From a virus, in IMG/VR virus record IMGVR_UViG_3300046524_000192, positions 1-50,150 of that record: a stretch of DNA of 50,150 nt; one strand, written 5' to 3'. Made by a program: the position numbers and the translations under genes. Positions 9,909 to 49,872 of the stretch are shown here, piece by piece (within the stretch, counting starts at the first letter, position 1; each line of letters starts with the position of its first letter). Under the pieces are notes generated by a model. It was given only the letters and a program-made list of their open reading frames with translations, did no database searches and was not told the DNA's origin.

Positions 9909-9932
9909 ATCGTTTGCATTCGAGCAAACGAT
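9909..9932 (-). repeat. Dispersed palindromic element, best copy
   Basis: Arms ATCGTTTGC and GCAAACGAT (9 bp, perfect) flank TCGAAT when read on the minus strand, the coding direction here. The right arm touches the stop codon of the major capsid gene. This is the longest perfect copy of the TTTGCTCGAATGCAAA element found about 20 times in the window. Confidence 0.8.
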
Positions 9933-10918
9933 TAGGCAGCCAGCTTGTGCTTGAAGGCCACCATGCGCACGAGCTTGGGATCGTACACGCGGGTCCAGTT
10001 GGCCGCGGTCGCCAGCTCAGCGTTGGTCGGGGTCACGCCGGCCTGGGTGCCGCCGAGCCACTTCACGCCGCGTGGGTGCATGACCCACTGCTTGCGGTTC
10101 ACGATGTACTCCTGGCCCATGCCCTTCAGCGCCTGGCGCTCGACTTCCACGGGAACCTTCGGAGCCTTTTCGCCGTAGCCGATGGCGCCCTGGCCGAAGA
10201 TGTAGGTCGTGAAGATCTTGTCCGCGCCCACTCCCGACACCGGCATGCCATCATCGACGATGACAATCTTGCCCATGTAGACCGGGATGGTCAGCTTGCC
10301 TTCGCTGTCCGGGACGTAGTCGATGAGGTCAGCCTTGACCATCGCCTTCAGGGTCAGCGAATGAACCGCGACAGCCGTCAGGCCGCCGGCTTCGTCGCCG
10401 AGCAGGAAGGTCGAGTCGACGAACGAGTCTGCGTCGAACGCAGCCGCAGCTCCGGCTGCGCCCGAGATGTCGTTGACGTTGCCCGTCATGTTCGCGGCAG
10501 CCATCGCACCCGCGAGGGTGTTCAGGAGAGCCTTCTGCATGCGGATGTTCCACCAGTCCGCGAAGCGGTTGGCGATCGCGTTGATGGGGTCGGCGCCGGA
10601 CAGGTCGGCAGCCAGGTCGGTCGAGCCGAACGCCTTGGCGCGCAGCAGCTTCACGGCCACGTCCTGACCGGTGGTGATACCGCTGACCGTCAGGTCGGTG
10701 GCGTCGTCGATCACGACTTCGCCGTTGCCGTCGCTGGCATCGAGGTCGTTGAAGAACGGCATGTTGACCGTCTTGCCCTCGATCTGAGCGTCAATCACCG
10801 ACGTCAGGTCGGTGATGATTCCCGACTGGAACAGCTTCGACTTTTCAGTCGTCAGCTGCTGAACATAGGCGTTGAACTTGGTCGGGACGATCATGTTCGA
10901 AAGTGCAGTTACAGACAT
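9932..10918 (-). CDS. Major capsid protein
   Basis: 328 aa, a common length for phage coat proteins. The sequence begins MSVTALSNMIVPTKF; it then has a helix with YVQQLTTEKSKLFQSGI, an N-M-P-F-F-N-D-L strand, and the ADWWNIRMQKALLNTLAG helix that is typical of gp13-type and related HK97-fold coat proteins. The C-terminus has the K-Q-W-V-M-H-P-R-G segment seen in the same group. It lies downstream of a scaffold-like gene and between two hairpins that could set its high expression. Confidence 0.9.
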   Translation of the reverse strand: MSVTALSNMIVPTKFNAYVQQLTTEKSKLFQSGIITDLTSVIDAQIEGKTVNMPFFNDLDASDGNGEVVIDDATDLTVSGITTGQDVAVKLLRAKAFGSTDLAADLSGADPINAIANRFADWWNIRMQKALLNTLAGAMAAANMTGNVNDISGAAGAAAAFDADSFVDSTFLLGDEAGGLTAVAVHSLTLKAMVKADLIDYVPDSEGKLTIPVYMGKIVIVDDGMPVSGVGADKIFTTYIFGQGAIGYGEKAPKVPVEVERQALKGMGQEYIVNRKQWVMHPRGVKWLGGTQAGVTPTNAELATAANWTRVYDPKLVRMVAFKHKLAA

Positions 10919-10962
10919 TTCTCACTCTTGGAGTTGGTCTGGACCAGCATCTGAAACGCAAA

Positions 10963-10986
10963 ACGCCGCCCCCGAAGGAGCGGCGT
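10963..10986 (-). terminator. Hairpin between scaffold-like and capsid genes, terminator-like
   Basis: On the minus strand ACGCCGC and GCGGCGT form a 7-bp GC-rich stem followed by TTTTGCG. It looks like a partial intrinsic terminator or a processing hairpin between the scaffold-like gene and the capsid gene. A promoter or read-through must serve the capsid gene. Confidence 0.65.
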
Positions 10987-11014
10987 CTGTTGTTGTGGGT
11001 CGTGGTCGGCGTCG

Positions 11015-11923
11015 TTAGTCTTTGACGCCGGCCGCTTCCTTCATCTGCTTGGCCAGTGCGGGGTTGGTGTTTTCCAGAAGCCCCTGCTGGGTGAAATTGA
11101 ACGTCTCCTTCACCCACGGATTTGCCGTGCCGGTGTTGGAGGCGCTATCGGAGCCCGGCTTGACTCCGAAGCCGCGCTTGTCTTCAGCCTTGAAGAGCGC
11201 TGGCTTGGACACCTTGATCTCCGTGAGGAGGTCGGTGACCGTGACCGGAGTGCCGAGGTGGTCTTTGATCCGCGGGTTGCCATTGGCGTCGACGACGTCA
11301 ACTTTCACCTTGCCGTCCACCACGCTCGTTTTCACGAACTGGCCGGCGAGAAGTTCGATGGCATCCCGCGCATCGTCCAGCGGATTGAGATTTGCAAGTT
11401 CGGACTTGATGGCGTTGTCGCGCATCAGAGTCTGAAGCTGCCCCGTGAGGCCAGTGATCGTGGTGTCCTTGCCCGTGACCAGGTTGGTCAGCTCGGTTTC
11501 CCGCGCAGTGAACTGCGTGGTGAGCTGGCCGCGCAAGGTCTCGAACTTGGTGTTCGCGATCGCTTCGGCTTCCTTCTCAGGATTGAGTGCCGACAGTCGT
11601 GCAGCGGTCTCGACAGCGGTGCGAGCCGCGTCGGGGGTGATGTCGCCGAAAGCCGTGATCCGTTCGAGAGCGGTTCGAGCCGCAGTGGCGTCGAGACCCT
11701 CGTAGGGGGTGAGCTGTGCCCGGAGAACGGAAACATTGTTCCGCTCCGCACCAAGTGCGGTCTTCAGGCCGGAGACGTTATCGAGTTCGAACCCGTCGAC
11801 TGGCGTCACGTTGAGATAGAACTTCCCGTCCTTGGCAACGTAAAACCCGCGATGAGCCTCATCGATGGTGGTGATATCTGCAACAACTGCTTTGAGCATA
11901 TCCATCCCGGAAATGCGGGGCAT
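11015..11923 (-). CDS. Scaffolding-like protein
   Basis: 302 aa. The N-terminal region resembles phage scaffold/minor head proteins (DGKFYLNVTPVDGFE ... LKTALGAERNNVSVL), then a long coiled-coil-like Ala/Thr/Glu-rich stretch (about 60-180) and a C-terminal tail ending in KQMKEAAGVKD. The gene sits directly upstream of the major capsid gene, as scaffolds do. An alternative start (MDMLKAVV) lies six codons in. Role inferred from fold-like pattern and position. Confidence 0.7.
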   Translation of the reverse strand: MPRISGMDMLKAVVADITTIDEAHRGFYVAKDGKFYLNVTPVDGFELDNVSGLKTALGAERNNVSVLRAQLTPYEGLDATAARTALERITAFGDITPDAARTAVETAARLSALNPEKEAEAIANTKFETLRGQLTTQFTARETELTNLVTGKDTTITGLTGQLQTLMRDNAIKSELANLNPLDDARDAIELLAGQFVKTSVVDGKVKVDVVDANGNPRIKDHLGTPVTVTDLLTEIKVSKPALFKAEDKRGFGVKPGSDSASNTGTANPWVKETFNFTQQGLLENTNPALAKQMKEAAGVKD

Positions 11924-11945
11924 CCCGCCCCTCGTGATAAAAGAA

Positions 11946-11970
11946 AAGCCCCGGCATCCCGCCAGGGCTT
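11946..11970 (-). terminator. Intrinsic terminator 23 bp upstream of the scaffold-like gene
   Basis: On the minus strand AAGCCC-T-GGC ... GCC-G-GGGCTT forms a strong stem followed by TTTTCTTTT, a textbook intrinsic terminator. It would end transcripts from the non-coding stretch at 11971-12245 just before the scaffold-like ATG, so the capsid genes would need read-through or a promoter nearby. Confidence 0.8.
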
Positions 11971-12245
11971 CGGTGTCATCCCCGAGGATCGGGGAATAGG
12001 TTTTCGCTTCGTCGAAAAATCATCCCGATCTTTCGCTTTGCGGAAATTTCTTCGGCGGCGGCGCGGGCGTGCGGCGCGCTCTTTGATCTCTGTCCGTCTT
12101 GTGCGGGAATGCGAACTGAGACCGCCGAAATCGCGCTCCAACCGATGAAGATCGGGAGCGCGAATTTGAACGGGGCGCCGGTTCGCTACGCTGGCCCGGA
12201 CGTGGCCTCGATAGACCAGGCTGCAGAACAGCGTGGCTCAAAGAA
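11971..12245 (-). ncRNA. Candidate structured small RNA between two terminators
   Basis: No credible reading frame. The stretch lies between the terminator at 12249-12273 and the one at 11946-11970, both pointing left. It contains nested helices: 12188-12193 with 12229-12234 (ACGCTG/CAGCGT); 12132-12138 with 12156-12162 (CGCGCTC/GAGCGCG) continued by 12142-12146 with 12151-12155 (CCGAT/ATCGG) around a 4-nt loop; TTTTCG/CGAAAA near 12002-12019; and TCCCC/GGGGA at 11979-11995. Together with the U-rich terminator this fits a minus-strand sRNA of about 280 nt. No promoter was identified, and a mere leader is the alternative. Confidence 0.4.
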
Positions 12246-12248
12246 AAA

Positions 12249-12273
12249 CCCGCCCAGGAAGCTCCTGAGCGGG
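12249..12273 (-). terminator. Intrinsic terminator of the small gene at 12299-12592
   Basis: On the minus strand CCCGCTCAGGA and TCCTGGGCGGG form an 11-bp stem with one G-U pair and a 3-nt loop, followed by TTTTTCTTT. It lies 26 bases after the stop codon of the 97-aa gene. Confidence 0.9.
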
Positions 12274-12298
12274 TCTGATCGCCTATCTGTGTTATGCG

Positions 12299-12592
12299 CT
12301 ATGCTGCGCGAAGCATCTCTTTCGGATCGATGACCTCGAAATAGTCACCAAAGTTCTCGGGCTTGCAGAACTCAATCCCATCCTCGTCGTTGAGGAGCAC
12401 GATGTCGCCCGCTATACAGGACTGCACGCCCCAAGGCGTCGCCATCGTGAAACCGCCATGCGGGTTGATCTGCAGCTCACCGGATTGGATCCGGTTGATC
12501 AACCATTTGGGCGGGGTTTCGTCAGCAGCCTGACCCCAAAGGGGCATCTTGAAGTGCTGAACGAGATAGGGCTTGCGCTGGAAGGTCCGCAC
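12299..12592 (-). CDS. Small phage protein of the K-P-x-x-V type (PGDYG-like)
   Basis: 97 aa from a GTG at 12592, chosen because GGAG lies five bases upstream; a GTG two codons earlier is possible. The start VRTFQRKPYLVQHFKMPLWG and the end SCIAGDIVLLNDEDGIEFCKP ... FEVI match a widespread small phage family (R-T-F-x-K-K-P-x-x-V-E-A ... G-D-W-I-x-x-x-x-G-E-x-Y-x-C-K-P-D-I-F). Function of that family is unknown. It is preceded by a copy of the dispersed palindrome and followed by a strong terminator, so it is its own transcription unit. Confidence 0.65.
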   Translation of the reverse strand: MRTFQRKPYLVQHFKMPLWGQAADETPPKWLINRIQSGELQINPHGGFTMATPWGVQSCIAGDIVLLNDEDGIEFCKPENFGDYFEVIDPKEMLRAA

Positions 12593-12600
12593 GGTCACTC

Positions 12601-12620
12601 CATTTGCATTACAGCAAATG
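12601..12620 (-). repeat. Dispersed palindromic element upstream of the 97-aa gene
   Basis: CATTTGC and GCAAATG (7 bp, perfect) around a 6-nt centre. On the coding strand it reads CATTTGCTGTAATGCAAATG and is followed at once by GGAG and the GTG start, the usual placement of this element. Confidence 0.7.
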
Positions 12621-12656
12621 AGAAACCACAGTACCGCACTTTTGTCAACCCCTGCT

Positions 12657-12873: not shown

Positions 12874-13123
12874 TGACCTTGGGTCGAGATTTGACAACCG
12901 TTGCGGCAACTTGCTCTCCCTTTGCCTTCCTTGGCTTCTTCACCGGGAATTTCGGATCGAAGCAGATAGGGCAGCAGTAGAACTCATCCCCGATCAGTTC
13001 GCCATTGAAGACGACCGACTTGGGGATCATTCGAACAAGTTCGCGCACGAGGGTGCCCTGCTTCTGCGTGCAAGGCTCGCAGAAGTAAGGGACTACCGAT
13101 ATCGTGAGTTCGACCTTTGCCAT
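12839..13123 (-). CDS. Small Cys-rich (zinc-ribbon-like) protein
   Basis: 94 aa from the ATG at 13123. Cys pairs C-E-P-C (about 16-19) and C-C-P-I-C (about 50-54) suggest one zinc site. The C-terminus is Lys/Pro-rich (FPVKKPRKAKGEQV), as in nucleic-acid-binding proteins. The ATG itself lies inside a copy of the dispersed palindrome and there is no Shine-Dalgarno sequence in front, so translation may be leaderless or the true start may differ. Confidence 0.6.
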   Translation of the reverse strand: MAKVELTISVVPYFCEPCTQKQGTLVRELVRMIPKSVVFNGELIGDEFYCCPICFDPKFPVKKPRKAKGEQVAATVVKSRPKVNAKPALSVVKP

Positions 13124-13132
13124 TCGAACAAG
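13115..13132 (-). repeat. Dispersed element containing a start codon
   Basis: Minus strand CTTGTTCGAATGGCAAAG. The ATG of the element is the start codon of the 94-aa gene. A second half copy, CGTTCGAATGCG on the plus strand, lies at 13142-13153. Confidence 0.6.
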
Positions 13133-14754: not shown

Positions 14755-16212
14755 TTACCAGTCAAAGACCTGCGCCCTGCGCGGACCGAGTAACTCGTTG
14801 AAGGCGTCGGAAGCGGCGTCGACCTGGTCGTCATGCGTGCCGAGCGGAAACATCTCCAGCTCGTCAGTAAATGCTTGATTCCAGCTCGCTCGCATCATCT
14901 TCACGTTGCGGCCTTCGCACTGCGCGGCGAACGCGGCAGCACGGGTGTCCTTCGGTCCGGTGGGGCGGACAGCTTTGATCTTGAAGCCGGCGAGCCGGCG
15001 GATGAAGCTCTGGGCCTGTGACTTTCCAGCCTGGCCCGGATCTTGTGGGATGATGATCTGCACAGACCGGCCGTCGTCCTTGGCGGTCTGGAAGATCTTG
15101 TTTTCGACCTGCAGCGGAGAGCCGCGGAAGCGGATGACGTTCTCGATGTAGAAGACGCCGTTGACGTCCTTCGACATCAGGACTCCTACCGTCCAGTCGC
15201 CATCAGACGATGCAGCCAGATCCCACGCCCGCACGCGGACGCGCTTGGCTGGCACCTCGGCAGGCGGAGCATCGAACCAGGAGGCCTTGAACATGCCGCC
15301 GTCAGCCGACATGGGCTGCTGCTGATACAGTGCGGAGAACGAACGCTCGCCAAGAACCTCCTGGCGATCCATCAGCGCTTCGTAGGAGAAGCGGTTCGGC
15401 GCCAGCGGCTCTTTGGGTTTGCGGCGGAGCGCGTCGAAAGGAACCGTTCCGTCATCGAGGAGGATGTCCTCCTTGGTCTCGGCGGTCTTCTTTACGATCG
15501 GGAGCGCCGGCAGCGTGAGAATGTCCCACGGCAGACCCTTGCCTTCCTTCATAAGCTCAATCAGGCGGCCGGCGATGTCGTCGTAGTGCCAGCGCGTCAG
15601 CGTGAGCACGATCGCCGCATCTTCTTCGAGACGGGTGTAAACGACGTCGCGGTACCAATCCCATTGGTCGCTGCGGAAGCCCGCGGACTCGACCTCTTTT
15701 CGATCTTTCACGGGATCGTCGATCAGGAAGAGATGCGAGCCCTTACCGGTGGTGCCCGAGCCGACGCCGACCGCGTAATACTGGCCGCCCTGATCCAGCT
15801 GCCAGTCATCTGCGGCGCGCTGGTCGGTGCGGATATTGACCTCGGGGAACAGCGTCTGAAACTGCTCGCCCTTGATGATGTCGCGAACGTTTCGGCCGAA
15901 CGAGGTCGCGAAGTCGGCGTTGTACGATGCCGAGATAACGTTGCGGTCCGGGTGCTTGGCCATGTAGTAGGCCGGGAAGCGCCGGGTCGACAGCTCACTC
16001 TTGCCGTGCCGCGGCGGCGCGAAGATCATCAGACGCTTGATCTCGCCGCGCTCGACCGCCTCCAATTTCTTCGCCACGATGTGGTGAAAGGGATCGGCGT
16101 AGTATTTCGGCAGGGTGTAGGTGGTGAAGTCGATGAGGTTGTCGCGGCCACGCCTGCGATGCAGAACCTCAGCCGCCGCCTCCTCAGGGGAGACGTCGTT
16201 GTCAAAATCCAC
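14755..16212 (-). CDS. terL: Terminase large subunit
   Basis: 485 aa from a GTG at 16212 with GAGAGAAATC before it. The open frame continues upstream, but that part crosses the tRNA-Gly and cannot be coding. Walker A is FAPPRHGKSE (about 64-73) and Walker B is LFLIDDPVKD. The nuclease domain has RVRAWDLAASSDGDWT and, at the end, THDDQVDAASDAF with paired Asp. The enzyme cuts concatemers and drives DNA packaging with the portal downstream. Confidence 0.95.
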   Translation of the reverse strand: MDFDNDVSPEEAAAEVLHRRRGRDNLIDFTTYTLPKYYADPFHHIVAKKLEAVERGEIKRLMIFAPPRHGKSELSTRRFPAYYMAKHPDRNVISASYNADFATSFGRNVRDIIKGEQFQTLFPEVNIRTDQRAADDWQLDQGGQYYAVGVGSGTTGKGSHLFLIDDPVKDRKEVESAGFRSDQWDWYRDVVYTRLEEDAAIVLTLTRWHYDDIAGRLIELMKEGKGLPWDILTLPALPIVKKTAETKEDILLDDGTVPFDALRRKPKEPLAPNRFSYEALMDRQEVLGERSFSALYQQQPMSADGGMFKASWFDAPPAEVPAKRVRVRAWDLAASSDGDWTVGVLMSKDVNGVFYIENVIRFRGSPLQVENKIFQTAKDDGRSVQIIIPQDPGQAGKSQAQSFIRRLAGFKIKAVRPTGPKDTRAAAFAAQCEGRNVKMMRASWNQAFTDELEMFPLGTHDDQVDAASDAFNELLGPRRAQVFDW

Positions 16213-16229
16213 GATTTCTCTCGGATGGT

Positions 16230-16304
16230 TGGAGCGGACGGCGAGGATCGAACTCGCGACGAACGGTTTGGAAAACCGGGGCTCTACCGCTGAGCTACGT
16301 CCGC
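16230..16304 (-). tRNA. tRNA-Gly (anticodon UCC)
   Basis: On the minus strand the 7-bp acceptor stem GCGGACG/CGTCCGC is perfect. The D-arm is GCTC-AGCGGTA-GAGC, the anticodon loop TTTCCAA, the T-arm GCGAG-TTCGATC-CTCGC. Discriminator U is followed by encoded CCA (16230-16232). One mismatch sits at the outermost anticodon-stem pair. It reads GGA codons and lies between the small and large terminase genes. Confidence 0.93.
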
Positions 16305-16434
16305 ATGTGAAAACCCCACGCCCGCTGGCCAAGCGGATCGTCCTGTCAATTCAGGACTTCTGGTGCGGTCGATCGTCACCGGGTACCGAGGTCTCCGGCT
16401 GCCACGATCGATCCCGTCAGGGGTCTTGTTTCGG

Positions 16435-23441: not shown

Positions 23442-23459
23442 CGTTTGCATTCGATCAAG
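23442..23459 (-). repeat. Dispersed palindromic element before the minus-strand run
   Basis: Coding strand reads CTTGATCGAATGCAAACG and runs straight into the GGAG of the 43-aa gene. Confidence 0.7.
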
Positions 23460-23585: not shown

Positions 23586-23601
23586 TTTGCACGAATGCTA
23601 A
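23586..23601. repeat. Dispersed palindromic element just downstream of a minus promoter
   Basis: Plus strand TTTGCACGAATGCTAA. It begins a few bases past the expected start of transcription of the promoter at 23612-23640, a position where a bound protein would block elongation or initiation. Confidence 0.6.
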
Positions 23602-23611
23602 TCTACAAAAA

Positions 23612-23640
23612 CAAATACAGGGGTGGGGCCGTTTTGTCAA
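23612..23640 (-). promoter_or_regulatory. Candidate sigma70-type promoter for the minus cluster
   Basis: On the minus strand TTGACA (23640-23635), a 17-bp spacer, then TATTTG (23617-23612). The -35 is perfect and the -10 weak (3 of 6). It faces the coupled small genes and the structural operon. Confidence 0.45.
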
Positions 23641-23853
23641 ATCCGGCCCAGCCCGCCGCCGGCCTGGGATCCAGATCAGGGCGAAGCCCTCGCCGGCCAT
23701 GGCGATCAGGATGATGATCGAGGTGGCCGTTTTGATCACGATCCTGATCAGGATGCCGGTCCGCAGCGCAGCGTCGCGCGTGCGTAAAGCATGGTAGTTC
23801 TCTATCTGGCAGTTCTATCTGGTAGTTAGGCGGCACCAGGTGCCTATGCGAAT

Positions 23854-23916
23854 GTCGTGACGTGCCGCTGCGGTGTCGTGAGGTGCCGCTGCCAGGTCGT
23901 GAGGTGCCGCTGCGAA
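23854..23916. repeat. Three 21-bp tandem repeats
   Basis: Units starting GTCGTGA at 23854, 23875 and 23896, each with core GTGCCGCTGC and 1-4 differences. Perfect period of 21 bp, two turns of helix, so a bound protein would see each unit on the same face. It borders the end of the 94-aa gene. Confidence 0.75.
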
Positions 23917-23917
23917 A

Positions 23918-24202
23918 TTACCTGTCGCGGGCCGGTTTTGAACGTCTCCAGACCGGATCTTTCGACCGCGCGTGATAGACCGGTTCCAGCGGGTGGAGCG
24001 CCTGCATCAGCCCGATCCTGGCGAAGTCAATTGGTCCACCATCAGCAGCCAGCAGCAGAGCCTCAGCGGCGGTCTGCCAGACAACCTTCGCCTGTTCTGC
24101 CTTGGGTAGCTTCAGGATGTAGGCCCGGGCATCGCTCAGCGTCCTCAGGGTGCCACCCTTCGGCAGCGGCACGGGTTCATGGAAGGACGCGGACCAGGAC
24201 AT
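23918..24202 (-). CDS. Rhizobial-type small hypothetical protein
   Basis: 94 aa from the ATG at 24202. MSWSASFHEPVPLPKGGTLR, then LSDARAYILKLPKAEQ and WQTAAEALLLAADGGPIDFA, RIGLMQALH. This W-S-A-S-F-x-E-P-V-P-L-P-K-G pattern is familiar from short Bradyrhizobium and relatives' chromosomal hypotheticals and suggests acquisition from, or exchange with, the host. No function is known. It is the most upstream gene of the minus half. Confidence 0.65.
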   Translation of the reverse strand: MSWSASFHEPVPLPKGGTLRTLSDARAYILKLPKAEQAKVVWQTAAEALLLAADGGPIDFARIGLMQALHPLEPVYHARSKDPVWRRSKPARDR

Positions 24203-24352
24203 GCGGCAACGATACCAGCCGGCCGTCACCCGCGCGAGTCTATCTCAGGGCGAAGCCCTCGCCGCTCCCGATGATCCGTAAACAGATCAAGATGGCACCT
24301 TATGATCCCCTTATGGATCATTTGGTCACCTGATGATGCCGCGCGCCGCACT

Positions 24353-24405
24353 CACCAGGCCACAGCCTGGTTTTCAGCACGACGAAACCAGGCTGTGACC
24401 TGGTG
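24353..24405. repeat. Long inverted repeat, 21-bp arms with 11-nt loop
   Basis: Arms 24353-24373 and 24385-24405 are complementary at 20 of 21 positions. The one mismatch is C-A on a plus-strand RNA but G-U on a minus-strand RNA, so a minus transcript would fold it completely. No U-tract follows on either strand. Confidence 0.85.
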
Positions 24406-24412
24406 CGATGAA

Positions 24413-24438
24413 CCTCCCGAACAGGAGGGGGTCTTTTA
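24413..24438 (+). terminator. Terminator-like hairpin
   Basis: CCTCC and GGAGG (5 bp, 24413-24417 and 24424-24428) with CGAACA loop, followed by GGGGTCTTTTATT. Short stem, so weak. Confidence 0.35.
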
Positions 24439-24449
24439 TTGCTGGGGTA

Positions 24450-24490
24450 CCCTTGAAGGCACATTAAGCCGGATAAGGTGCTTTCAAGGG
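24450..24490 (+). repeat. 13-bp hairpin in the divergent region
   Basis: CCCTTGAAGGCAC (24450-24462) pairs with GTGCTTTCAAGGG (24478-24490), with one G-U pair when transcribed on the plus strand (C-A on the other). Loop 15 nt. Confidence 0.7.
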
Positions 24491-24632
24491 CGCATTCGCG
24501 GGCCGCAACGAATGGCACACCACCACAGCCAGTCAGAGCTGCAGGATGGGAACGGTATCCCAGCACAGGCGGAAATGGCCTTTTAGGGATGGGAAATATG
24601 AGGATGGGGCCCCCCAAGGGGTGGTGGGGGTC

Positions 24633-24706
24633 TAGGAAAAAAAACTCGCTCACTCCTAGGACTGCAGTCTCATTTTCAAAAGGAGTATGTTCCTAGCGTC
24701 TAGGAA
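24633..24706. promoter_or_regulatory. CTAGG dyads and palindromes
   Basis: CTAGGA at about 24632, TCCTAGGA around 24655, GACTGCAGTC (24660-24669, perfect palindrome) and TTCCTAG-CGT-CTAGGAA (24690-24706). Clustered dyads of this kind look like operator or origin-protein sites. Confidence 0.5.
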
Positions 24707-24770
24707 TATGATCCAAGCTGATAGTTTTCCTACACTGTGGCAGGATGTCGCAGCTGCAAACTTTCTTGGC

Positions 24771-24811
24771 TTGGGACGTCGTTTGCATTGCTTCTAAAAT
24801 TCGAATGCAAA
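24771..24811 (+). promoter_or_regulatory. Candidate plus promoter overlapped by the dispersed palindrome
   Basis: TTGGGA (24771-24776), 18-bp spacer, TAAAAT (24795-24800). A wide copy of the element, TTTGCATT (24782-24789) and AATGCAAA (24804-24811), straddles the spacer, the -10 and the expected start. A protein bound there would repress the promoter. It would drive the structured RNA region and the plus genes. Confidence 0.45.
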
Positions 24812-24823
24812 GACTCACTCGCT

Positions 24824-24916
24824 ATGCTTCTAAGTCATTGATTTTGTTTGTATTTTCTTGTGCGACTGAGACTTACAAACTGTGTCTTTGATGCTTGTAA
24901 GCTATTGATTTTGTTG
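24824..24916. repeat. AT-rich direct repeat pair
   Basis: ATGCTTCTAAG...ATTGATTTTGTT at 24824-24849 and ATGCTTGTAAG...ATTGATTTTGTT at 24891-24916 agree at 22 of 26 positions, spaced 67 bp apart. The tract 24780-24965 is much more AT-rich than its surroundings, as in a duplex-unwinding element. Confidence 0.65.
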
Positions 24917-24965
24917 AGTTTTATTTTCATGTTTTCAACCGTGGTTTAACTGTTATTGTTTGTTT

Positions 24966-25836
24966 GTGAGCAACGCGGTTGTGTTGCTCGCGGGCAGGAC
25001 AAGGCCCGGGCAGACAAGGCCCTTCTTGTTCCCCTCTTTCCAAGAGGGTTGGAGCTAGACAAAGGAGACTGATTTTCACGGGGTTGCTACCCTAGTACCT
25101 GTAGCGATAGCCCTGCATTCTAGGCCCTTCGTGGCGTTGCCGTATGGCAGATTGCAGAGTGTGTAGTGAGGGAACGGACATAGGCAACCATGGCGCAACG
25201 TAGCACCCTAAGGCGGGATTGCCCTTGCATCATGGTTCGCGAGCCCCGGCCTTGAATGGCCAGTGATATCAGCGGATTTTGTACCGGCTATTGGACTAGG
25301 CCGACGACGAGTCGGAAAAATAGCATCGGAGAGCCCTATTCAGTTAGGTATACCGTTGCCTGCTAGTATCGGAAATTATGGCTGCAACCTTGTACGGGTT
25401 TAAGCTTTGCGGTGGATAAGGCCCCTTTGGGCGTTGTCGGACGACTATCAATTGCAAAGCTTTCACTTCCAAGCTTCTACAGCGCGCCTTCACTCAGTGT
25501 TGGCTAGGCCTCTGCAGTCATGGTTTACCGGCTTCTGGACCCTCTCCCTATACGGCAATGGCATGCTTTGGGACGGCCAGAAGCGGCGGGCATAACCTTG
25601 CGACCATAGCGCTAGGCACTAGCCGGATAGGCGCGACGCGCAACCTTTGCAGCGTTTCCAGTCCGGCCGAATTGCGAGTAGCAAACTAGGCGCGATCGTT
25701 ACCCCGCCTGACAAAACCCCCATCCAAACCACGACGAGTCCGAGTGTCATCTCAACCGGCGCTCGGACTCTGTCTGGTGTTTGCTTATCCGGCAAGCATC
25801 TCAAGGGTGCTTACCCGATAGGCGCAACGTCTATCG
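24966..25836 (+). ncRNA. Candidate large structured non-coding RNA (about 870 nt)
   Basis: No ORF with coding character. Strong helices in order: 24966-24974 with 24983-24991; 25032-25038 with 25042-25048; 25086-25090 with 25101-25105; 25186-25192 with 25231-25237; 25284-25292 with 25319-25329 enclosing 25301-25305 with 25311-25315; 25402-25410 with 25454-25462 (9 bp) enclosing 25415-25418 with 25446-25449 and two hairpins (25421-25432, 25433-25445); 25531-25538 with 25577-25584; 25611-25623; 25631-25641; 25688-25692 with 25705-25709; 25728-25744 with 25762-25778 (16 bp, two bulges); 25794-25798 with 25808-25812; 25816-25821 with 25831-25836. G-U pairs in the first and in the 25433-25445 helix favour the plus strand. 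It could be a free ornate RNA or the leader of the gene at 25870. Confidence 0.55.
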
Positions 25837-25869
25837 CATTCGTCCCCCATGTCAAACAGGAGTCCAACT

Positions 25870-26529
25870 ATGTCGAAGACCACTGCCGTTAAGGAAGCCA
25901 AGGCCGCAACCTTCACTCTCATTACCGGCACTGCCGATATTGAGAAGGCCCTCGCGTCGATCAAGACTCGAGGTGCGGCCCTGCAACAGGACATTCACAA
26001 GGCCGGGTGCTCCGTGCTGGCGCATGTCGGCAAGCACAAGGATATCCGCCTCGTCACCAAACTGCTGGACGCCATGCCCGACATGGCCCGCAAGAATGCC
26101 ATCAAGGCATGGTTCGAGTCGTTCGGTCCGGTCATCTTCGCGGAAGATGGCAAGATCGCCTATCACCCCGCCACCTCTCTGCGCCTTGGCGACGCCATGG
26201 CCATGCCGTTCTGGCGCTTCAAGCCTGAGCAGGCCTACGTCCCGATGAACGTCGGGCAGGCGCTGGACCAGCTCATCAAGAAGCTGGAAAAGGACCACAA
26301 GGAGACCGGCAACAGCCATCTGGCGATCGTCGCTGGCCTCTCCAAGCTGCGCGAGCAGTGCCCGGAAGAGGGTGACGTCCGCGCTGCCGCCAATGCCAAG
26401 GTCGCAGCAGCCGTGACCGCTGCCCCCGCGCCCAAGGCCACCCGCAAGGCCAAGGACGCCACCACTGCGCCCGTCGCCGACGTCGTCGCAACCGACGCCA
26501 CCACTGCGCCGGAAGCGATCGCCGCCTAA
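25870..26529 (+). CDS. Conserved phage early-type protein, unknown function
   Basis: 219 aa from the ATG at 25870 with AGGAG seven bases upstream; an earlier frame start was not used. HKAGCSVLAHVGKHKDIRLV (about 41-60), then DAMPDMARKNAIKAWFESFG and FWRFKPEQAYVPM, form a pattern I associate with a protein common in podo- and siphophage early or replication-adjacent regions. The C-terminal 45 residues are Ala/Thr/Lys-rich and low complexity. It is the first plus-strand gene after the structured region, so it may be its regulated target. Confidence 0.65.
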   Translation: MSKTTAVKEAKAATFTLITGTADIEKALASIKTRGAALQQDIHKAGCSVLAHVGKHKDIRLVTKLLDAMPDMARKNAIKAWFESFGPVIFAEDGKIAYHPATSLRLGDAMAMPFWRFKPEQAYVPMNVGQALDQLIKKLEKDHKETGNSHLAIVAGLSKLREQCPEEGDVRAAANAKVAAAVTAAPAPKATRKAKDATTAPVADVVATDATTAPEAIAA

Positions 26530-28887: not shown

Positions 28888-28919
28888 TGCTTGCATTGGC
28901 ATTCGATCTAATGCAAATG
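28888..28919 (+). repeat. Dispersed element, double copy
   Basis: TTGCATTGGCATTCGATC continues into TAATGCAAATGA, with arms GCATT/AATGC around CGATCT. A half copy, GCGAATGCAAAAGG, lies at 28927-28940, next to the AAGGA of the DUF6197-like gene. Confidence 0.6.
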
Positions 28920-32306: not shown

Positions 32307-32480
32307 TGCCTGTGAGCAACGGAGAACGACCATGAAGAAGTAATCGGCCCCCACTGAGAACCGACAACAGACTGGACTACTGAGACCGGTGAAGCCGGGA
32401 GCGACCGGACCCATTGCGCGACCAGCGGCGCGCCAACAATTCCGCTGGAGCTATTTCCGGGCACAGCCATGGCTGGCTGG

Positions 32481-32500
32481 TTGCTCGAATGAAAACGGAG
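32481..32500 (+). repeat. Dispersed element before the 99-aa gene
   Basis: TTGCTCGAATGAAAACGGAG, 12 bases before the ATG. It is part of a 31-bp direct repeat (32461-32491 and 32831-32861, two differences) that precedes two successive genes. Confidence 0.75.
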
Positions 32501-32511: not shown

Positions 32512-32811
32512 ATGAACAGCACTCAGGTCGGACTTATCCTCGTTAAGTTCGAAGAATACATGGAGGGTTCCACCTACGGCATTCTCATCACCACGAAGTC
32601 TGGGCGGATGATTGCCGGGGACGTTCGTGGAGTTGGTGGCGCCATCGCCCCATTCGATGTCCTCAGCATCACCCCCTATCAATCGGTTGATCCGATGATA
32701 CCGACAACACAGGGCAGCTACCCGGTCGCGATGGTCGATTGCGATAGCATCGAGTGCATCACGCTTATCGACCAGCTTGAGGTCTGGAAAAACAAAGAGC
32801 CGTCGACCTAG
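32512..32811 (+). CDS. 99-aa hypothetical protein
   Basis: ATG at 32512; a longer frame upstream crosses the repeated leader and was not used. MNSTQVGLILVKFEEYMEGS, then TTKSGRMIAGDVRGVGGAIA, PFDVLSITPYQSV; a beta-rich protein with an Sm- or OB-like feel, unproven. Own leader with a motif copy. Confidence 0.6.
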   Translation: MNSTQVGLILVKFEEYMEGSTYGILITTKSGRMIAGDVRGVGGAIAPFDVLSITPYQSVDPMIPTTQGSYPVAMVDCDSIECITLIDQLEVWKNKEPST

Positions 32812-32850
32812 CGGGCGGCAATCACCAAACGCACAGCCGTGTCTGGCTGG

Positions 32851-32870
32851 TTGCTCGAATGCAAAGAGGG
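32851..32870 (+). repeat. Dispersed element before the DUF7007-like gene
   Basis: TTGCTCGAATGCAAAGAGGG, eight bases before the ATG. Second member of the 31-bp leader repeat. Confidence 0.75.
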
Positions 32871-36131: not shown

Positions 36132-36150
36132 ATTTGCTTGAATTGTAACG
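36132..36150 (+). repeat. Dispersed element, degenerate copy before the 66-aa gene
   Basis: TTTGCTTGAATTGTAACGC after the terminator, with GCAAATG again at 36168. Placement fits a new transcription unit from here. Confidence 0.5.
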
Positions 36151-38975: not shown

Positions 38976-39004
38976 ATTATAGCGTGGTGTTTGCTCGAAT
39001 GCAA
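38976..39004 (-). promoter_or_regulatory. Consensus promoter overlapping the dispersed element
   Basis: On the minus strand TTGCAT (39004-38999), 17-bp spacer, TATAAT (38981-38976, perfect). The -35 lies in the element at 38990-39005. The expected start is about 38969, giving a leader of only about three bases before the ATG at 38966, so the mRNA would be almost leaderless. Confidence 0.75.
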
Positions 39005-39005
39005 A
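38990..39005 (+). repeat. Dispersed element, consensus copy
   Basis: Plus strand TTTGCTCGAATGCAAA, exact consensus. It lies between the minus GIY-YIG-like gene and the plus gene at 39063, covering the minus promoter. A second partial copy with TTACCGAATGCAAATCAG is at 39034-39051, next to the GGAG of the plus gene. Confidence 0.85.
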
Positions 39006-41793: not shown

Positions 41794-42174
41794 GCCTACC
41801 GATCTAACAAAAAAGCACAGAGCCTTCGAAAACGAGGGCCGTCCACACCTGCGGAGACATCGGGGGATGAGCAGATGCAACTTAAATAAAAAGAACCAGC
41901 GTAAAACAGGGAACAGCGTCAGTGAGTATCAGAACGTTCACCGGGTTCACGAAGTGGATCCGGACCAGTAACCCCCGAGACAGACCACGACTGGAAGTAT
42001 TTCTACTTCCGTTTGAATATTGACTTGCTTTTTGATTTGATCGAATGCAAATGATAAACGCCATCGGCGGCGGGTGCGGGACATTTCCCCGCTCCCGCTG
42101 CCAACCAAGGGCCGAACCATGCCCACTCGCTTGCTCGAATTGGAATTTGAATTGAAATTCAAACGGAGAAATCG
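41794..42174 (+). other. Leader region with hairpin and motif copies
   Basis: No gene in about 380 bases. Holds a GGAAGTA-TTTC-TACTTCC hairpin (41993-42010), the element at 42036-42052 (TTTGATCGAATGCAAAT) and a variant at 42131-42164 where TTGCTCGAATTGG runs into TTTGAATTGAAATTCAAA and then CGGAG before the ATG at 42175. Confidence 0.6.
42036..42052 (+). repeat. Dispersed element upstream of the 514-aa gene
   Basis: TTTGATCGAATGCAAAT. A possible TTGAAT-N17-TTTGAT promoter (42013-42041) would place its -10 in this element. Confidence 0.65.
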
Positions 42175-44715: not shown

Positions 44716-46884
44716 ATGAAGCTCGGAATGCAGGAACACACCGACGTCTCCAGCGGCGTCCAGAACGAAATCGCGATCGCCTTCGAGGCGAACGCCGTCG
44801 CCTTCTACGCTCAGATCTCCGGCCTCGCCAAGGACAAGATCGGCTACCCGATCCGCGAGCTTGCGACCAACGCCTGGGATGCGTCCCGAGGCCGGTTCGA
44901 AATCTTCCTGCCGACCCCGCTATCGCCGTTCTACCGCGTCCGTGATTACGGCCCGGGCATGTCGGCCGACACCATGCGCGACGTCTACGCCCGGCTCTAT
45001 GCCTCGACCAAGCGCGGTTCCAACGACGAGGTCGGCGGCTGGGGTCTGGGTTCCAAGAGCCCGTTCGCCTACCTGATCGGCGACGGCGGCGCTGGCTCCT
45101 ACACCGTGATCTCCTACAACGGCGGCATGGCTCGCACCTACGTGCTGTCGCTGTCGCAGACCGGCGCTCCGGTGATGCGCATGCTGGCGGAAATCCCCTC
45201 CGACGAGCCGTCCGGCATGGACGTGTCTTTCCCGGTCAAGCGGGAGGACATCCGAACCTTCCACGACCGCGCCAAGTCGATCCTGTGGTCGTTCCAGCCG
45301 CGTCCGACGATCACCCCTGCGATTGCCTGGGCCGAGCCGATCGTGCTCGCCTCGGGTGAGGGATGGGCGAAATACGCCTTCGGCAAGGTTCCGTTCTACG
45401 GCCCGCAGGTGCGCATGGGCTGCGTGATGTATCCGCTCGATCTAAGCCAGCTTAAGACCACTGGCTTCCTGACCGAAGAGGATCACATCGTGTTCGACGC
45501 GCCGATCGGCTCGCTGAAGGTCACGCTGTCCCGCGAGGAGCTGGCCTACGACGACCGCACCAAGGCGACGCTGTCGGCTCTGGTGAAGGCTTACGAGGAC
45601 AACGTCGTCAGCCAGGTCAGCGCCAAGGTCAACGAGGCGACGGACTATTTCAAGGCTTGCCAGCTGTTCGAGGAAGCGACCAACGACCTCGGCATCCATC
45701 GCCAGGGCAAGCTGCGCGAGATCGTTCGCTGGAATGGCCGGGAAATCAACATCTGGATCTGCGAAAGCAAGGAGCTGTTCAAGACCATGTTCCTGCGGCA
45801 GGGCTGGTTGACTTTCGACAAGTTCGACCATCATGCGGTTCGCACCTCGATCTGCGACGAGGCCAAGATCGTCCTGGAGCACAATCCGCTCTATTCGCTG
45901 GCTCGCATGCAGGCTGCTGGTATGCTGGGCCAGAAGCTGCTCTGGGTTCGCTGCAAGCGCTACAATCGCGATGCCGTACTGACCGCTCTCGGTAATCCAG
46001 AGGTCGTCGATCTGGACAGCTTCAAGGTCCAGGTCGATCGCACGGCTCGGTCCAAGACCACGAAGCGCCGCAAGGTGCTTTCGCTCACCCCGGCGGGTGG
46101 CGTTCATCGTTCGGTCGAGGACGTCGATATGTCCGAGGGCGGCTACTACGCGGTGCAGACCGGGACTGGTCGGCGCCGACGCAGCGAGACGTATTACCTC
46201 AGCGATACGATGTACAGCATCAACGGCGATGCGCTCGACGACGCTCTGGAAACAGCCATCTCTTTGGGTGCGCTCGATCCGATCGATATCCTTCTCAAGA
46301 AGGATACTGACGTGCTCGGCGACAACTGGCTTCCGATCGGTCCCGAGCTGGTGTCCGCGCTGACATCGAAGCTGGATGTGTCCGAGTTCACCGGACTCCA
46401 CAAGAAGAACATCCATAGCCTCAACAGCCGCGTCCGCGTGCTTGCTGAGACGATGGATCTGACTGGCGCTCCGGCTGATCTGCTGGAGTTCCGGGCCGAA
46501 GCGAAAGCTTTGGCTGTGGCGCTGCGTGCCCAGGGTGAAGGCAAGGTCTCGAATAGCGACCGCGCTCACTCCGCTCTTCAGAAGCTCGGTCAAAAGGTCG
46601 ATCTGCCATCCGTCTCCGATCCGCTCGCCGCAATCGAGCGTCGGTACGAAACGCTGGCCGAGAACACCTACCCGTTGCTGGCTCTCATCATGACGAATGC
46701 CGGCAATTACTACCATCGAAGCTCGGATGTTCAGCGCAACCTGAACGAATACTTCAAGCTTCTGGCACGCGTACCTCTTGTCTCGGAAGTGCCGACACCT
46801 GTCGCTGCAAACGATTACGAGTTCGAAGGCGACGTCGAGGTGGACGATGACGAGTTCGAAGGCGACATCGACGTCGCCGCATAA
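44716..46884 (+). CDS. rIIA-like GHKL ATPase
   Basis: 722 aa, close to T4 rIIA (725). GHKL ATP site: YPIRELATNAWDASRG (N-box E and N, about 44-58), RVRDYGPGMSADTM (G1) and EVGGWGLGSKSPFAYLIGDG (G2 lid). Later parts are helical with a charged C-terminus (DYEFEGDVEVDDDEFEGDID). In T4, rIIA with rIIB protects against host exclusion. Adjacent rIIB-like gene supports the pairing. Start preceded by AAGGATACG. Confidence 0.85.
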   Translation: MKLGMQEHTDVSSGVQNEIAIAFEANAVAFYAQISGLAKDKIGYPIRELATNAWDASRGRFEIFLPTPLSPFYRVRDYGPGMSADTMRDVYARLYASTKRGSNDEVGGWGLGSKSPFAYLIGDGGAGSYTVISYNGGMARTYVLSLSQTGAPVMRMLAEIPSDEPSGMDVSFPVKREDIRTFHDRAKSILWSFQPRPTITPAIAWAEPIVLASGEGWAKYAFGKVPFYGPQVRMGCVMYPLDLSQLKTTGFLTEEDHIVFDAPIGSLKVTLSREELAYDDRTKATLSALVKAYEDNVVSQVSAKVNEATDYFKACQLFEEATNDLGIHRQGKLREIVRWNGREINIWICESKELFKTMFLRQGWLTFDKFDHHAVRTSICDEAKIVLEHNPLYSLARMQAAGMLGQKLLWVRCKRYNRDAVLTALGNPEVVDLDSFKVQVDRTARSKTTKRRKVLSLTPAGGVHRSVEDVDMSEGGYYAVQTGTGRRRRSETYYLSDTMYSINGDALDDALETAISLGALDPIDILLKKDTDVLGDNWLPIGPELVSALTSKLDVSEFTGLHKKNIHSLNSRVRVLAETMDLTGAPADLLEFRAEAKALAVALRAQGEGKVSNSDRAHSALQKLGQKVDLPSVSDPLAAIERRYETLAENTYPLLALIMTNAGNYYHRSSDVQRNLNEYFKLLARVPLVSEVPTPVAANDYEFEGDVEVDDDEFEGDIDVAA

Positions 46885-46898: not shown

Positions 46899-47363
46899 AT
46901 GATCACCAGCGTCATCAGCGACACGTCGATCACGTTCTTTGCCAGGGGTCGTCCGTGGACCCTGGCATCGGACCACCCGGCTTTCGACACCATCAAGTCC
47001 CTCCTTGCAAGTAATACCGATGATGAAGACGAGCTGGTTCGGCTGACTGACGTCCGGGTAGGCGTGACCGAAGCAACAGAGGGACGGGCCGTCCTCACCG
47101 ACGACGGCCTGTTCCTCGACGGCGAGCAGCTCTCAACCAGCTGGGAAATGAAGGCAGCTTCTGAACCTACGGCAATGAAGGTGCTGCTGGTCAGCGCGGG
47201 CGACAAGGTCCGCGTTGAAGGCGACGAGGATGCACCGGACGGCATCTACGTGGTCGGTGAAGTCGACAACCAGGACGTTGACAAGCGTGTCTACGTCGAA
47301 AGCGACGAGGACTTCTTTGGCTTCGTTGCCAACACCTCGATCAAGGAAATCATCAGGGACTGA
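46899..47363 (+). CDS. rIIB-like protein (N-terminal domain only)
   Basis: 154 aa. MITSVISDTSITFFARGRPW, T-L-A-S-D-H-P-A-F-D-T-I-K-S-L-L matches the front of phage rIIB-like proteins (V-T-I/V-...-F-x-x-G-x-x-x-T-...-H-P-x-F). The middle and end are beta-rich and acidic. Much shorter than T4 rIIB (about 312); the larger partner role may be split with the next gene. Placement directly after rIIA is the main support. Confidence 0.65.
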   Translation: MITSVISDTSITFFARGRPWTLASDHPAFDTIKSLLASNTDDEDELVRLTDVRVGVTEATEGRAVLTDDGLFLDGEQLSTSWEMKAASEPTAMKVLLVSAGDKVRVEGDEDAPDGIYVVGEVDNQDVDKRVYVESDEDFFGFVANTSIKEIIRD

Positions 47364-47393
47364 TTGATCGGCCCTGATCAAACGGAGATTGAA

Positions 47394-49406
47394 ATGGACT
47401 TCCTGAAATTCAAGAACGCGGTGGCCAAGCAGTTCGACACGCTTAGCAAGAACCAGCTGTTCTGCACCGCGGTCGAGAAGGATGACCTCTGGGCCACCTA
47501 TATCGAAAGCTTCCCGGCCGGTACCAACCCAATCTTCCGGGAGCGTACCGAGCATGACTGCAGCTGTTGCCGCCAGTTCATCCGGGCGATCGGCAACGTC
47601 GTTGCCATCGTGGACGGCAAGCCCGTCAGCATCTGGGACACAGTGATCGCCGAACCGGCCTACCAGACGGTGGCCGATGCCATGGCCAAGCTCGTGAAGA
47701 GCAAGCCGATCTCGGACGAGTTCCTCAGCTCCGAGCGCAAGGCCGGTACCGACAAGACCTACGAGGACATCGTCGACAAGGTTCAGACCTGGTCGCACTT
47801 CTTCGTCAACATCCCGGCGGTCAACTTCTGCACCGGAAAGGACATCGCCACCAAGCTGTCAGATACCCGGTCGACGCACGACGTGTTCCTGCGCGGACTT
47901 ACCGAACTGACGCTCGACTCAGTGGATACCGTCCTGGAGCTGATCGCCCAAAACTCGCTCTACCGGGGTTCGGAATACAAGAACACGCTGCACACGTTCC
48001 GCAACCTGAAGTTCGAGTTCGAAAAGCTGCCGGTCGCCGACCGCGATGCCTATGTCTGGTCCAAGACCAAGATGACGCATGGCGCGATTGCCCGTGTCCG
48101 CAACACCTCGATCGGCACCATGCTGATCGACCTATCAGCCGGTGTTGATCTCGAAGATGCTGTCCGCAAGTTCGAGACATCGATCATGGCGCCGTCGAAT
48201 TACAAGCGGCCGACCGCCCTCGTCAGCAAGGCGATGGTGGAGAAGGCAAAGGCGACCATCGCCGAGCTGGGACTGACGTCGGCGCTCGATCGCCGCTTCG
48301 CCACGCTGACGGACATCAGCATCGAGAACATCCTGTTTGCCGATCGGGATGCCCGTAAGGTCATGACGGGCGACGTTTTCGACGCCATCAAGACCAAGGC
48401 ATCGAGCCGCAAGCTGGACAAGGTCGAGGAAATCCCGATCGATAAGTTCATCGCTGAGGTTCTTCCGAAAGCCGAGTCGATCGAGGTCATGTTCGAAGGC
48501 CGGCACCAGAACAACCTGGTCAGCCTGATCGCCCCTGTCGATCCGGTCGCGCTGCCGCTGCTGAAGTGGGACAACAACTTCTCGTGGTCCTACAACGGCG
48601 ACATGGCGGACTCCATCAAGGAGCGCGTCAAGAAGGCCGGCGGCAACGTCAGCGGCGACCTGTGCTGCCGACTCGCCTGGAGCAACCTCGACGACCTCGA
48701 TTTCCACATGCGAGGGCCATCCCACGAGCACATCTACTACGGCGCCAAGCAGGCCCCGCGGACTCTTGGTCGGTTGGACGTGGACATGAATGCCGGCATG
48801 GGCAAGACCCGCGAGCCCGTCGAGAACATCTTCTACGGGGATCGCCGGCTGATGCGGGAGGGCGAGTATCGCCTCCAGGTGAACCAGTTCACACGCCGCG
48901 AGAACACCAACATCGGCTTCGAGGTCGAGATCGACTTCATGGGGACGATCTGGAAGTTCGCCTACGACAAGCCGATGAAGACCGGCGAAACCGTGACCGT
49001 GGCGACGTTCCGTTACAGCCATGCCAATGGCGTTCAGATGATCGACTCGCTGCCGGCAACGACGGCGTCCAAGACCATCTGGAGCATCCCGACGCAGGAG
49101 TTCCACAGGATCAACCTGATGATGCTGTCGCCCAACTTCTGGAACGACCGCGGCATCGGCAACAAGCACTACTTCTTCATGCTCGACGACTGCCTCAACG
49201 ACGGCTCGGCGCGTGGCTTCTTCAACGAGTTCCTCCGGGATGAGCTGACGCCGCATCGCAAGGTCATCGAGATCGTCGGCTCGAAGATGAAGACCGAGCA
49301 GTCGATCAACCAGCTCTCTGGTCTCGGCTTCTCAAGCACTCAACGCAATGACCTCATGGTGCGGGTCAAGAGCAACTTCAACCGGACCGTCAAGGTCGTA
49401 TTCTAA
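47394..49406 (+). CDS. Large protein with DUF2135/YfaP-like C-terminal domain
   Basis: 670 aa from the ATG at 47394 with ACGGAG upstream; the earlier in-frame ATG at 47364 lacks an SD. The N-terminal 400 residues are helical and unrecognised. The C-terminal part, RLAWSNLDDLDFHMRGPSHE ... IYYGAKQAP ... LDVDMNAGMG ... GEYRLQVNQFTRREN, fits the L-x-W-x-x-x-x-D-L-D-x-H-x-x-x-P ... G-x-Y-x-V-x-V-x-x-F pattern of DUF2135 (YfaP) domains. It may be a surface-active or assembly factor that works with rIIA/rIIB-like proteins. Confidence 0.7.
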   Translation: MDFLKFKNAVAKQFDTLSKNQLFCTAVEKDDLWATYIESFPAGTNPIFRERTEHDCSCCRQFIRAIGNVVAIVDGKPVSIWDTVIAEPAYQTVADAMAKLVKSKPISDEFLSSERKAGTDKTYEDIVDKVQTWSHFFVNIPAVNFCTGKDIATKLSDTRSTHDVFLRGLTELTLDSVDTVLELIAQNSLYRGSEYKNTLHTFRNLKFEFEKLPVADRDAYVWSKTKMTHGAIARVRNTSIGTMLIDLSAGVDLEDAVRKFETSIMAPSNYKRPTALVSKAMVEKAKATIAELGLTSALDRRFATLTDISIENILFADRDARKVMTGDVFDAIKTKASSRKLDKVEEIPIDKFIAEVLPKAESIEVMFEGRHQNNLVSLIAPVDPVALPLLKWDNNFSWSYNGDMADSIKERVKKAGGNVSGDLCCRLAWSNLDDLDFHMRGPSHEHIYYGAKQAPRTLGRLDVDMNAGMGKTREPVENIFYGDRRLMREGEYRLQVNQFTRRENTNIGFEVEIDFMGTIWKFAYDKPMKTGETVTVATFRYSHANGVQMIDSLPATTASKTIWSIPTQEFHRINLMMLSPNFWNDRGIGNKHYFFMLDDCLNDGSARGFFNEFLRDELTPHRKVIEIVGSKMKTEQSINQLSGLGFSSTQRNDLMVRVKSNFNRTVKVVF

Positions 49407-49417
49407 AGGAGAACTAC

Positions 49418-49816
49418 ATGTTCGAAAAAGCTTCCCGCCTGAAACTCCGCTTTGACTCGCCGGTCAGCGCGTCGCTGTTGGTCGAGGATCTCTGGGGTCT
49501 GCCGCTCACGTCCACCAAAACCCGGCCGGTCGCCAATCTGGACGACATCGCAGTCGCCCTGCACAAGCAGCTGAAGAATGACAGCGACGTGTCGTTCGTC
49601 GTCAAGTCCCGCAAGTCGGACGAGACGATCCAGCTGAAGTTCGACATCGTCAAGCACATCATCGAGGTTCGCGTCGCCGAAGCCGATGTTGCTGCCGAGA
49701 AGAAATCGAACAGCGACAAGAAGCAGAAGATCCTCGCACTGATCGCCGACAAGGAAGACGACGCCCTCGCCGGCAAGTCGGTCGACGAGCTGCGAGCACT
49801 GGCCGAAAGCCTCTAA
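49418..49816 (+). CDS. Conserved small phage protein (M-F-E-K-A-S-R-x-K-L-R-F type)
   Basis: 132 aa with AAGGAG upstream. MFEKASRLKLRFDSPVSASL, then VEDLWGLPLTS, LDDIAVALHKQLKND and QLKFDIVKHIIEVRVAEADV, A-E-K-K-S, K-Q-K-I-L-A-L-I-A-D-K match a family common beside rII-like or replication genes in phages of many hosts. Function unknown; N-terminus possibly beta, rest helical. Confidence 0.8.
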   Translation: MFEKASRLKLRFDSPVSASLLVEDLWGLPLTSTKTRPVANLDDIAVALHKQLKNDSDVSFVVKSRKSDETIQLKFDIVKHIIEVRVAEADVAAEKKSNSDKKQKILALIADKEDDALAGKSVDELRALAESL

Positions 49817-49824
49817 TCGCATCC

Positions 49825-49850
49825 GGGCGGATGGCTTCGGCTGTCCGCCC
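49825..49850 (+). promoter_or_regulatory. Hairpin after the 132-aa gene
   Basis: GGGCGGA (49825-49831) pairs with TCCGCCC (49844-49850), no U-tract. It is followed at once by a motif copy TTGCTCGAATTGG at 49853, leading to the ATG at 49874. Confidence 0.6.
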
Positions 49851-49852
49851 AC

Positions 49853-49872
49853 TTGCTCGAATTGGAATGTGA
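49853..49872 (+). repeat. Dispersed element before the last gene
   Basis: TTGCTCGAATTGGAATGTGA, next to the GAG and ATG of the gene at 49874. Same variant as at 42131. Confidence 0.65.

Follow-up and report, generated by a model that had tools for sequence, protein, structure and literature searches.

Dispersed, directional repressor sites have been well studied in the Cluster A actinophages, with phages P1 and SPbeta offering looser parallels. In mycobacteriophage L5 and its relatives, 20-30 such sites are scattered in one direction relative to transcription, both at promoters and in short intergenic spaces (PMC9283540, PMC6550527). The L5 site is a 13-bp asymmetric sequence, and its repressor, 183 aa long, is monomeric and contains two DNA-binding domains (PMC9283540). 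Cluster A relatives have similar but distinct consensus sequences, and a site is found at the repressor promoter (PMC9283540, PMC6550527). The C1 operators of P1 comprise 22 dispersed 17-bp asymmetric sites with the consensus ATTGCTCTAATAAATTT (PMC8546580; NC_005856 annotation). In SPbeta, the repeated intergenic element SPBRE is bound by the master repressor MrpR, a protein with a tyrosine-recombinase fold that recognizes a 15-bp motif and binds about ten promoter regions (PMC10516654).

A dispersed repeat is also carried by the viral DNA analyzed here, a stretch of 50,150 nucleotides (the window). On sequence similarity, the window represents 50 kb of a larger phage, from a family of ~120 kb temperate myophages of Bradyrhizobium, of which BDU-MI-1 is the named relative. 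Bradyrhizobium phage BDU-MI-1, which is 121 kb long and has tail sheath genes, encodes a capsid 79% identical to that of the window, and similar capsids occur in many IMG/VR contigs, the longest of about 100-128 kb. A near-identity search of a phage collection for relatives returned no match. The window also encodes a tRNA-Gly(TCC) on the minus strand (16230-16304) within the first-start ORF of the terminase (14755-16332), and so the terminase probably begins at a start codon internal to this ORF.

The repeat in the window is genuine and far above chance. Matches with up to three mismatches were found 11 times, against a mean of 0.46 in shuffled sequence. When a weight matrix built from 198 non-redundant sites of nine relatives, with the window excluded from training, was applied, 11 places reached at least 12 bits, compared with 0.58 when dinucleotides were shuffled and 0.33 when the matrix columns were permuted, and 17 places reached at least 8 bits, compared with 2.3 and 1.4, respectively. 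An earlier note on this DNA had proposed about 20 copies of a palindrome, 18 of them with positions. Ten of these 18 score at least 12 bits by the relatives-only matrix and are sure, four (13117, 24782, 42130, and 49852) are weak, at 8-10 bits and close to noise, and four (12657, 13142, 27403, and 39034) stay under 8 bits and represent only half-sites (for example, AATGCAAA). The palindrome holds for the arms, TTTGC and GCAAA, which are inverted repeats, but not for the centre, GAAT, which is asymmetric and fixed, making the element directional. No earlier description of the element sequence was found in a literature search.

Two copies in the window are exact (TTTGCTCGAATGCAAA, 28.9 bits each). 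The one at 9913-9928 (-) sits between two leftward genes, the capsid gene (9932-10918) and 9514-9843, and the one at 38990-39005 (+) lies in a divergent gap 57 nt ahead of gene 39063, an equivalent site being present 57-63 nt from the gene in six genomes. Further minus-strand copies are TTTGCTGTAATGCAAA at 12603-12618 (22.4 bits), 10 nt ahead of the start of gene 12299-12592 (-), and CTTGATCGAATGCAAA at 23444-23459 (18.7 bits), 10 nt ahead of the first gene of a leftward operon. Upstream of the former, a TTGACA is present at 12643-12648, accompanied by a –10 element that is weak in the window and reads TTATACA in relatives. The copy TTTGCACGAATGCTAA at 23586-23601 (+; 24.7 bits) is placed just downstream of, and in the opposite orientation to, a leftward σ70-type promoter read from the sequence as TTGACA-N17-TATTTG (23612-23640, minus strand; TTGACA at 23635-23640 and TATTTG at 23612-23617). 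The GCTAA variant that this copy carries was also found at the equivalent place in most relatives, and the equivalent promoters there carry TTGACA or TTGACT. The region 23640-25850 (~2.2 kb) has a lower G+C content (0.54 for 24001-26000), and a simple gene caller gave no convincing gene in it.

The remaining copies of at least 12 bits in this series are on the plus strand: TTCGATCTAATGCAAA at 28902-28917 (12.8 bits), overlapping an opposed weaker match (28896-28911, minus strand); GTTGCTCGAATGAAAA at 32480-32495 (14.2 bits) and GTTGCTCGAATGCAAA at 32850-32865 (22.5 bits), each immediately 5′ of a ribosome-binding site (RBS); TTTGCTTGAATTGTAA at 36133-36148 (15.9 bits); and TTTGATCGAATGCAAA at 42036-42051 (20.6 bits). 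The copies at 32480 and 32850 have upstream sequence in common (CACAGCC.TG.CTGGCTGGTTGCTCGAATG, within 32440-32495 and 32810-32865), and so the leader region seems duplicated. The copy at 42036 lies 123 nt ahead of gene 42175, the first of a gene group ending in an rIIA-like gene, and an equivalent site occurs at about 97-123 nt from the gene in six genomes. The weak variant CTTGCTCGAATTGGAA is found at 42130-42145 (+; 9.2 bits), 29 nt ahead of gene 42175, where relatives have a better copy ~10 nt ahead of the orthologue, and again at 49852-49867 (+; 9.2 bits), where it is close to noise taken alone; the two share an identical off-consensus form, each ahead of a gene. The match CTTGTTCGAATGGCAA at 13117-13132 (-; 9.3 bits) is doubtful. 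The rIIA-like protein and a 680-aa protein (phrog_1735), encoded at 44716-46884 and 47364-49406, are common to very different large phages and are up to 56% identical to those of Caulobacter phiCbK-type phages.

In the context of the family, the pattern given in the earlier note matched in all 14 records tested, and its reversed form in none. Ten relatives carry 10-40 copies each, with the family consensus [CT]TTGC[TA][TC]GAATGCAAA, and the matrix from the sites of nine relatives defines a 16-bp core, [CT]TTGCWYGAATGCAAA. Nine of 11 records contain 21-40 sites, the other two being the window fragment with nine and G012, which has a different consensus, with ten. A scan of viral contigs with TTGCTTGAATGCAAA mixed family members with unclassified contigs and was left out of the results. 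Placement was evaluated for 291 sites of at least 14 bits in these 11 records, using genes from our own simple caller, on which the counts depend. Only 18 sites (6%) were in coding sequence, although ~84% of the genomes is coding. Between tandem genes (n = 216), 194 sites were co-directional with transcription and 22 opposed, and a further 50 sites were between divergent genes. The earlier observations that the copies lie between genes, point at the gene they precede, and end just before the RBS, as at 32480 and 32850, were thus borne out across the family.

Moreover, orthologous genes are preceded by a site in 6-9 genomes, often with identical spacing. For example, the gene for a single-stranded-DNA-binding protein has a site at 34-41 nt in nine genomes, a 95-aa gene (BDU-MI-1 76627, corresponding to window 12299) has one at exactly 10 nt in eight genomes, and the capsid gene carries one in eight genomes. 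Conservation extends beyond the core to T-9 G-8 Y C, C-1 G0, and Y17 R18, the upstream bases being strongest in the 57 sites that end no more than 24 nt from a start codon. In the distant relative G014, the capsid of which is 59% identical, a low-threshold scan detected 31 sites of a divergent form, [CT]TTGCGCGATT[GT]CAA[AG], with an additional GCAAA at 23-27. The centre is changed there, and the half-sites and placement are as in the rest of the family. Centres reading GCATGCAAA or GAATTCAAA occur in other relatives. The half-sites persist while the centre drifts among relatives. Both conditions that the earlier note had named as refuting the motif, an equal density in coding or shuffled sequence and a lack of conservation among relatives, were checked, and the motif withstood them.

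The family is temperate, as observed in Bradyrhizobium hipponense aSej3, in which an integrated prophage occupies a tRNA-Met gene. This 122 kb prophage is bounded by a 48-52 bp direct repeat corresponding to the 3′ part of the tRNA gene (att repeats at C262:2737-2788 and 124751-124802), a Phage_integrase gene (C262:2928-4127) adjoins the left repeat, and phage similarity on the contig stops at the right one. The corresponding IMG/VR prophage record (L137; G015:C262; 118,885 bp) begins ~2.1 kb outside the left repeat and ends ~5.2 kb before the right repeat. In the 8.8 Mb lysogen genome, all 21 motif matches with up to one mismatch were on the prophage contig, with ~0.1 chance matches expected in the remainder under a simple base-composition model, and therefore the element belongs to the phage and not to the host. 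In both BDU-MI-1 and the B. hipponense prophage, the integrase gene lacks a nearby site, which fits a gene for which silencing in the lysogen is unnecessary. Another relative, G005 (L143-L149), was not assembled as an integrated prophage; the first 10.3 kb of its 127.6 kb contig are repeated at the contig end, indicating a circularly redundant genome of 117.3 kb.

A CI-like protein of ~220-280 aa is encoded in all 12 near-full-length relatives, including G014, and the four records without the gene, the window among them, are partial (50-76 kb). The protein is predicted to consist of a Cro/C1-type helix-turn-helix (HTH), a flexible linker, and a LexA/S24-like C-terminal domain. The HTH was over the cut-off (HTH_26, 4.5e-6), and for the C-terminal domain PF00717 passed the cut-off in G012 and otherwise gave weak matches in G008 and G011 alone. 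In a Foldseek search with the structure model (mean pLDDT 70, with a low-confidence linker), the LexA C-domain was the top match (E 5e-3), and lambda repressor was also matched. In an alignment by eye, the position of the S24-dyad Ser is S, T, or A among members and the Lys is not conserved; since the Ser is not maintained, self-cleavage is unlikely. Extra partial CI-related copies are present at G013:C1:25142-25537, with the C-terminal domain only, and at G003:C1:18911-19159, where the HTH is fused to another conserved phage protein.

In BDU-MI-1, a RuvC-like gene precedes the CI-like gene (15009-15698, minus strand), and the genes for a replication initiator and a primase are transcribed divergently from the CI-like gene. 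In this phage and in relatives, the TTGACC-N17-TATTTG promoter of the CI-like operon is overlain by a site from about –10 to +6. In six genomes, two opposed off-consensus sites ~36 bp apart are found upstream of the CI-like gene, the second site in one of the six (G005) having been read by eye only. In total, 12 sites of at least 12 bits were counted in 4.5 kb against 1.8 expected, counts that are not independent because the genomes are related and share sites by descent. A conserved GAACAAAAAA tract is located just upstream of the opposed pair in several relatives. Between BDU-MI-1 and G014, the centre of the site changes, but neither the HTH recognition helix (APSTILR) nor the half-sites TTTGC/GCAAA do.

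The copies are best explained, with somewhat better than even probability, as dispersed immunity-repressor sites, for which the CI-like protein is the likeliest repressor; binding, repression, and the arrest of elongation are what we infer. The prophage repressor would occupy some 10-40 sites and silence the integrated virus gene by gene. At sites on σ70-type promoters, such as window 23586 and the CI-like operon promoter, it could block initiation or early elongation, and at the majority of sites, in short gaps just 5′ of an RBS within operons, it might block elongating RNA polymerase. Direction, which was observed to follow transcription in nine of ten cases, could matter for such a block to read-through, and the copies in the control region of the CI-like gene itself may serve autoregulation. 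Most sites have no recognizable adjoining σ70 promoter, and for this reason their proposed operator role rests on the stoperator analogy. Moreover, the conserved T-9 G-8, C-1 G0, and Y17 R18, like the third GCAAA at 23-27 in G014, exceed what one HTH dimer needs, and neither the fixed direction nor the asymmetric centre is easily accounted for by a symmetric CI-like dimer, all of which counts against this explanation.

It is here that the main and strongest rival, a phage-specific promoter, gains its attraction, although it seems unlikely overall. It supposes a directional, self-contained promoter, TGYCY-N4-CG-[CT]TTGCWYGAATGCAAA (or TGYCY-N4-CG-YTTGCWYGAATGCAAA), present in tens of copies per genome and read by host RNA polymerase reprogrammed by a phage protein, perhaps with the CI-like repressor also acting, so that position 17/18, adjoining the RBS, would be the transcript start. 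The initiator-like Y17 (157 of 198 sites) and R18 (160 of 198) would fit such a start, as would a TGC-TTGAAT readable as an extended –10, the strong T-9 G-8 Y C near start codons (G-8 in 50 and C-6 in 43 of 57), the strict direction, and the position just upstream of RBSs; in addition, 22 of 198 sites come immediately after a strong hairpin, resembling a terminator followed by a promoter. The same geometry, however, implies that leaders are very short and carry the RBS at their 5′ terminus, and often a transcript would begin with the RBS. Some 50 sites occupy gaps between divergent genes, and copy 23586 opposes the strong promoter there. At the CI-like gene the clustered copies are in the opposed orientation, and a promoter serving that gene would leave this unaccounted for. 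None of 11 records yielded a σ region-4 domain above the cut-off, which led a phage σ factor to be rejected; a search for a single-subunit phage RNA polymerase also found none, but its control was silent, so it shows little. Dispersed phage promoters were the second comparison drawn in the earlier note, and they carry this same low probability. Among described promoter types, a σ70 promoter at one fixed offset was rejected because it fits only a minority of sites, and a σ54 promoter because, despite the fitting TG-N9-TTGCW spacing, the second G of the GG is C or T.

A middle- or late-transcription activator box that acts with a downstream –10, like that of T4 MotA, is very improbable. The T4 MotA box resembles TTTGCTTTA, and a subset of sites carries TGCTA at position 22 (10 against 0.22 expected), producing GCTAAT/GATAAT at 23-28. 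Sites that adjoin an RBS, however, leave no room for a downstream –10 and start, and regardless of the location of the RBS, positions 23-27 in G014 read GCAAA, which is another half-site. Repressor sites with another phage binder are equally hard to credit. The earlier note had suggested the 41106 protein, which contains tandem repeats of the Myb/HTH-like type and weakly matches D5-like regulators, and several proteins of unassigned function are conserved in all relatives. As the general binder, 41106 was rejected, since no homologue was found in G008, G011, G013, and G014, all of which bear the motif, and among the proteins tested the CI-like one alone is universal, has a recognized DNA-binding domain, and has the motif at its own promoters. 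An RNA hairpin or nut-like antitermination site was also rejected: paired counts equalled the independent expectation at all six stem pairs, with no compensatory changes, and the site therefore acts at the DNA level.

With the immunity-repressor reading preferred, the element can be set beside the known systems. The earlier likening to L5 stoperators stands for the number of sites, their dispersal ahead of genes, direction, placement on promoters and in short gaps, consensus drift, the site at the promoter of the probable repressor, and the temperate lifestyle. It fails for the sequence, here a 16-bp pseudo-palindrome that differs from the 13-bp asymmetric L5 site. The candidate repressor, with its HTH plus LexA/S24-like layout, has an architecture unlike the one that PMC9283540 describes for the L5 repressor gp71; the phages here are also larger myophages of an alphaproteobacterium. 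The P1 C1 operators are as close an analogy, with dispersal, sites at the repressor's own promoters, and TTGCTC-AAT in common with the window form. Nevertheless, only 10 of 16 letters align by eye, the GCAAA arm is absent in P1, annotated P1 sites are mostly on σ70 promoters (NC_005856), and P1 is a plasmid prophage, whereas integration here is in a tRNA gene. The CI-like protein has no significant similarity to P1 C1 (283 aa), and, of the proteins scanned, P1 C1 was the only one matched by the NCBIfam C1 model. On account of the dissimilar repressors and different site consensus, the element was rejected as a member of the P1 system.

The SPbeta prophage is more than 100 kb long and likewise has an intergenic repeat across a large prophage, but MrpR has a tyrosine-recombinase fold and the candidate here is of CI/LexA type. 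The HTH plus S24-like layout, the paired operators upstream of the repressor gene, and a CI-like gene opposite a replication-initiator gene, as for lambda cI and O, recall lambda CI and LexA, although lambda has few, clustered operators and here there are tens of dispersed sites. By analogy, the element appears to work like a stoperator system yet belongs to none of the tested families, and its repressor is most likely unrelated to those of the two known phage systems it resembles.

This family of large temperate phages of nitrogen-fixing Bradyrhizobium seems to have arrived at the same solution with a CI/LexA-type protein. If this is true, silencing of the stoperator kind evolved on more than one occasion and does not depend on the fold of the L5 repressor. 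The analysis provides a testable regulon together with a probable immunity repressor, and the diverged relatives, with changed centres and kept half-sites, offer material for studying the co-evolution of repressor and site.
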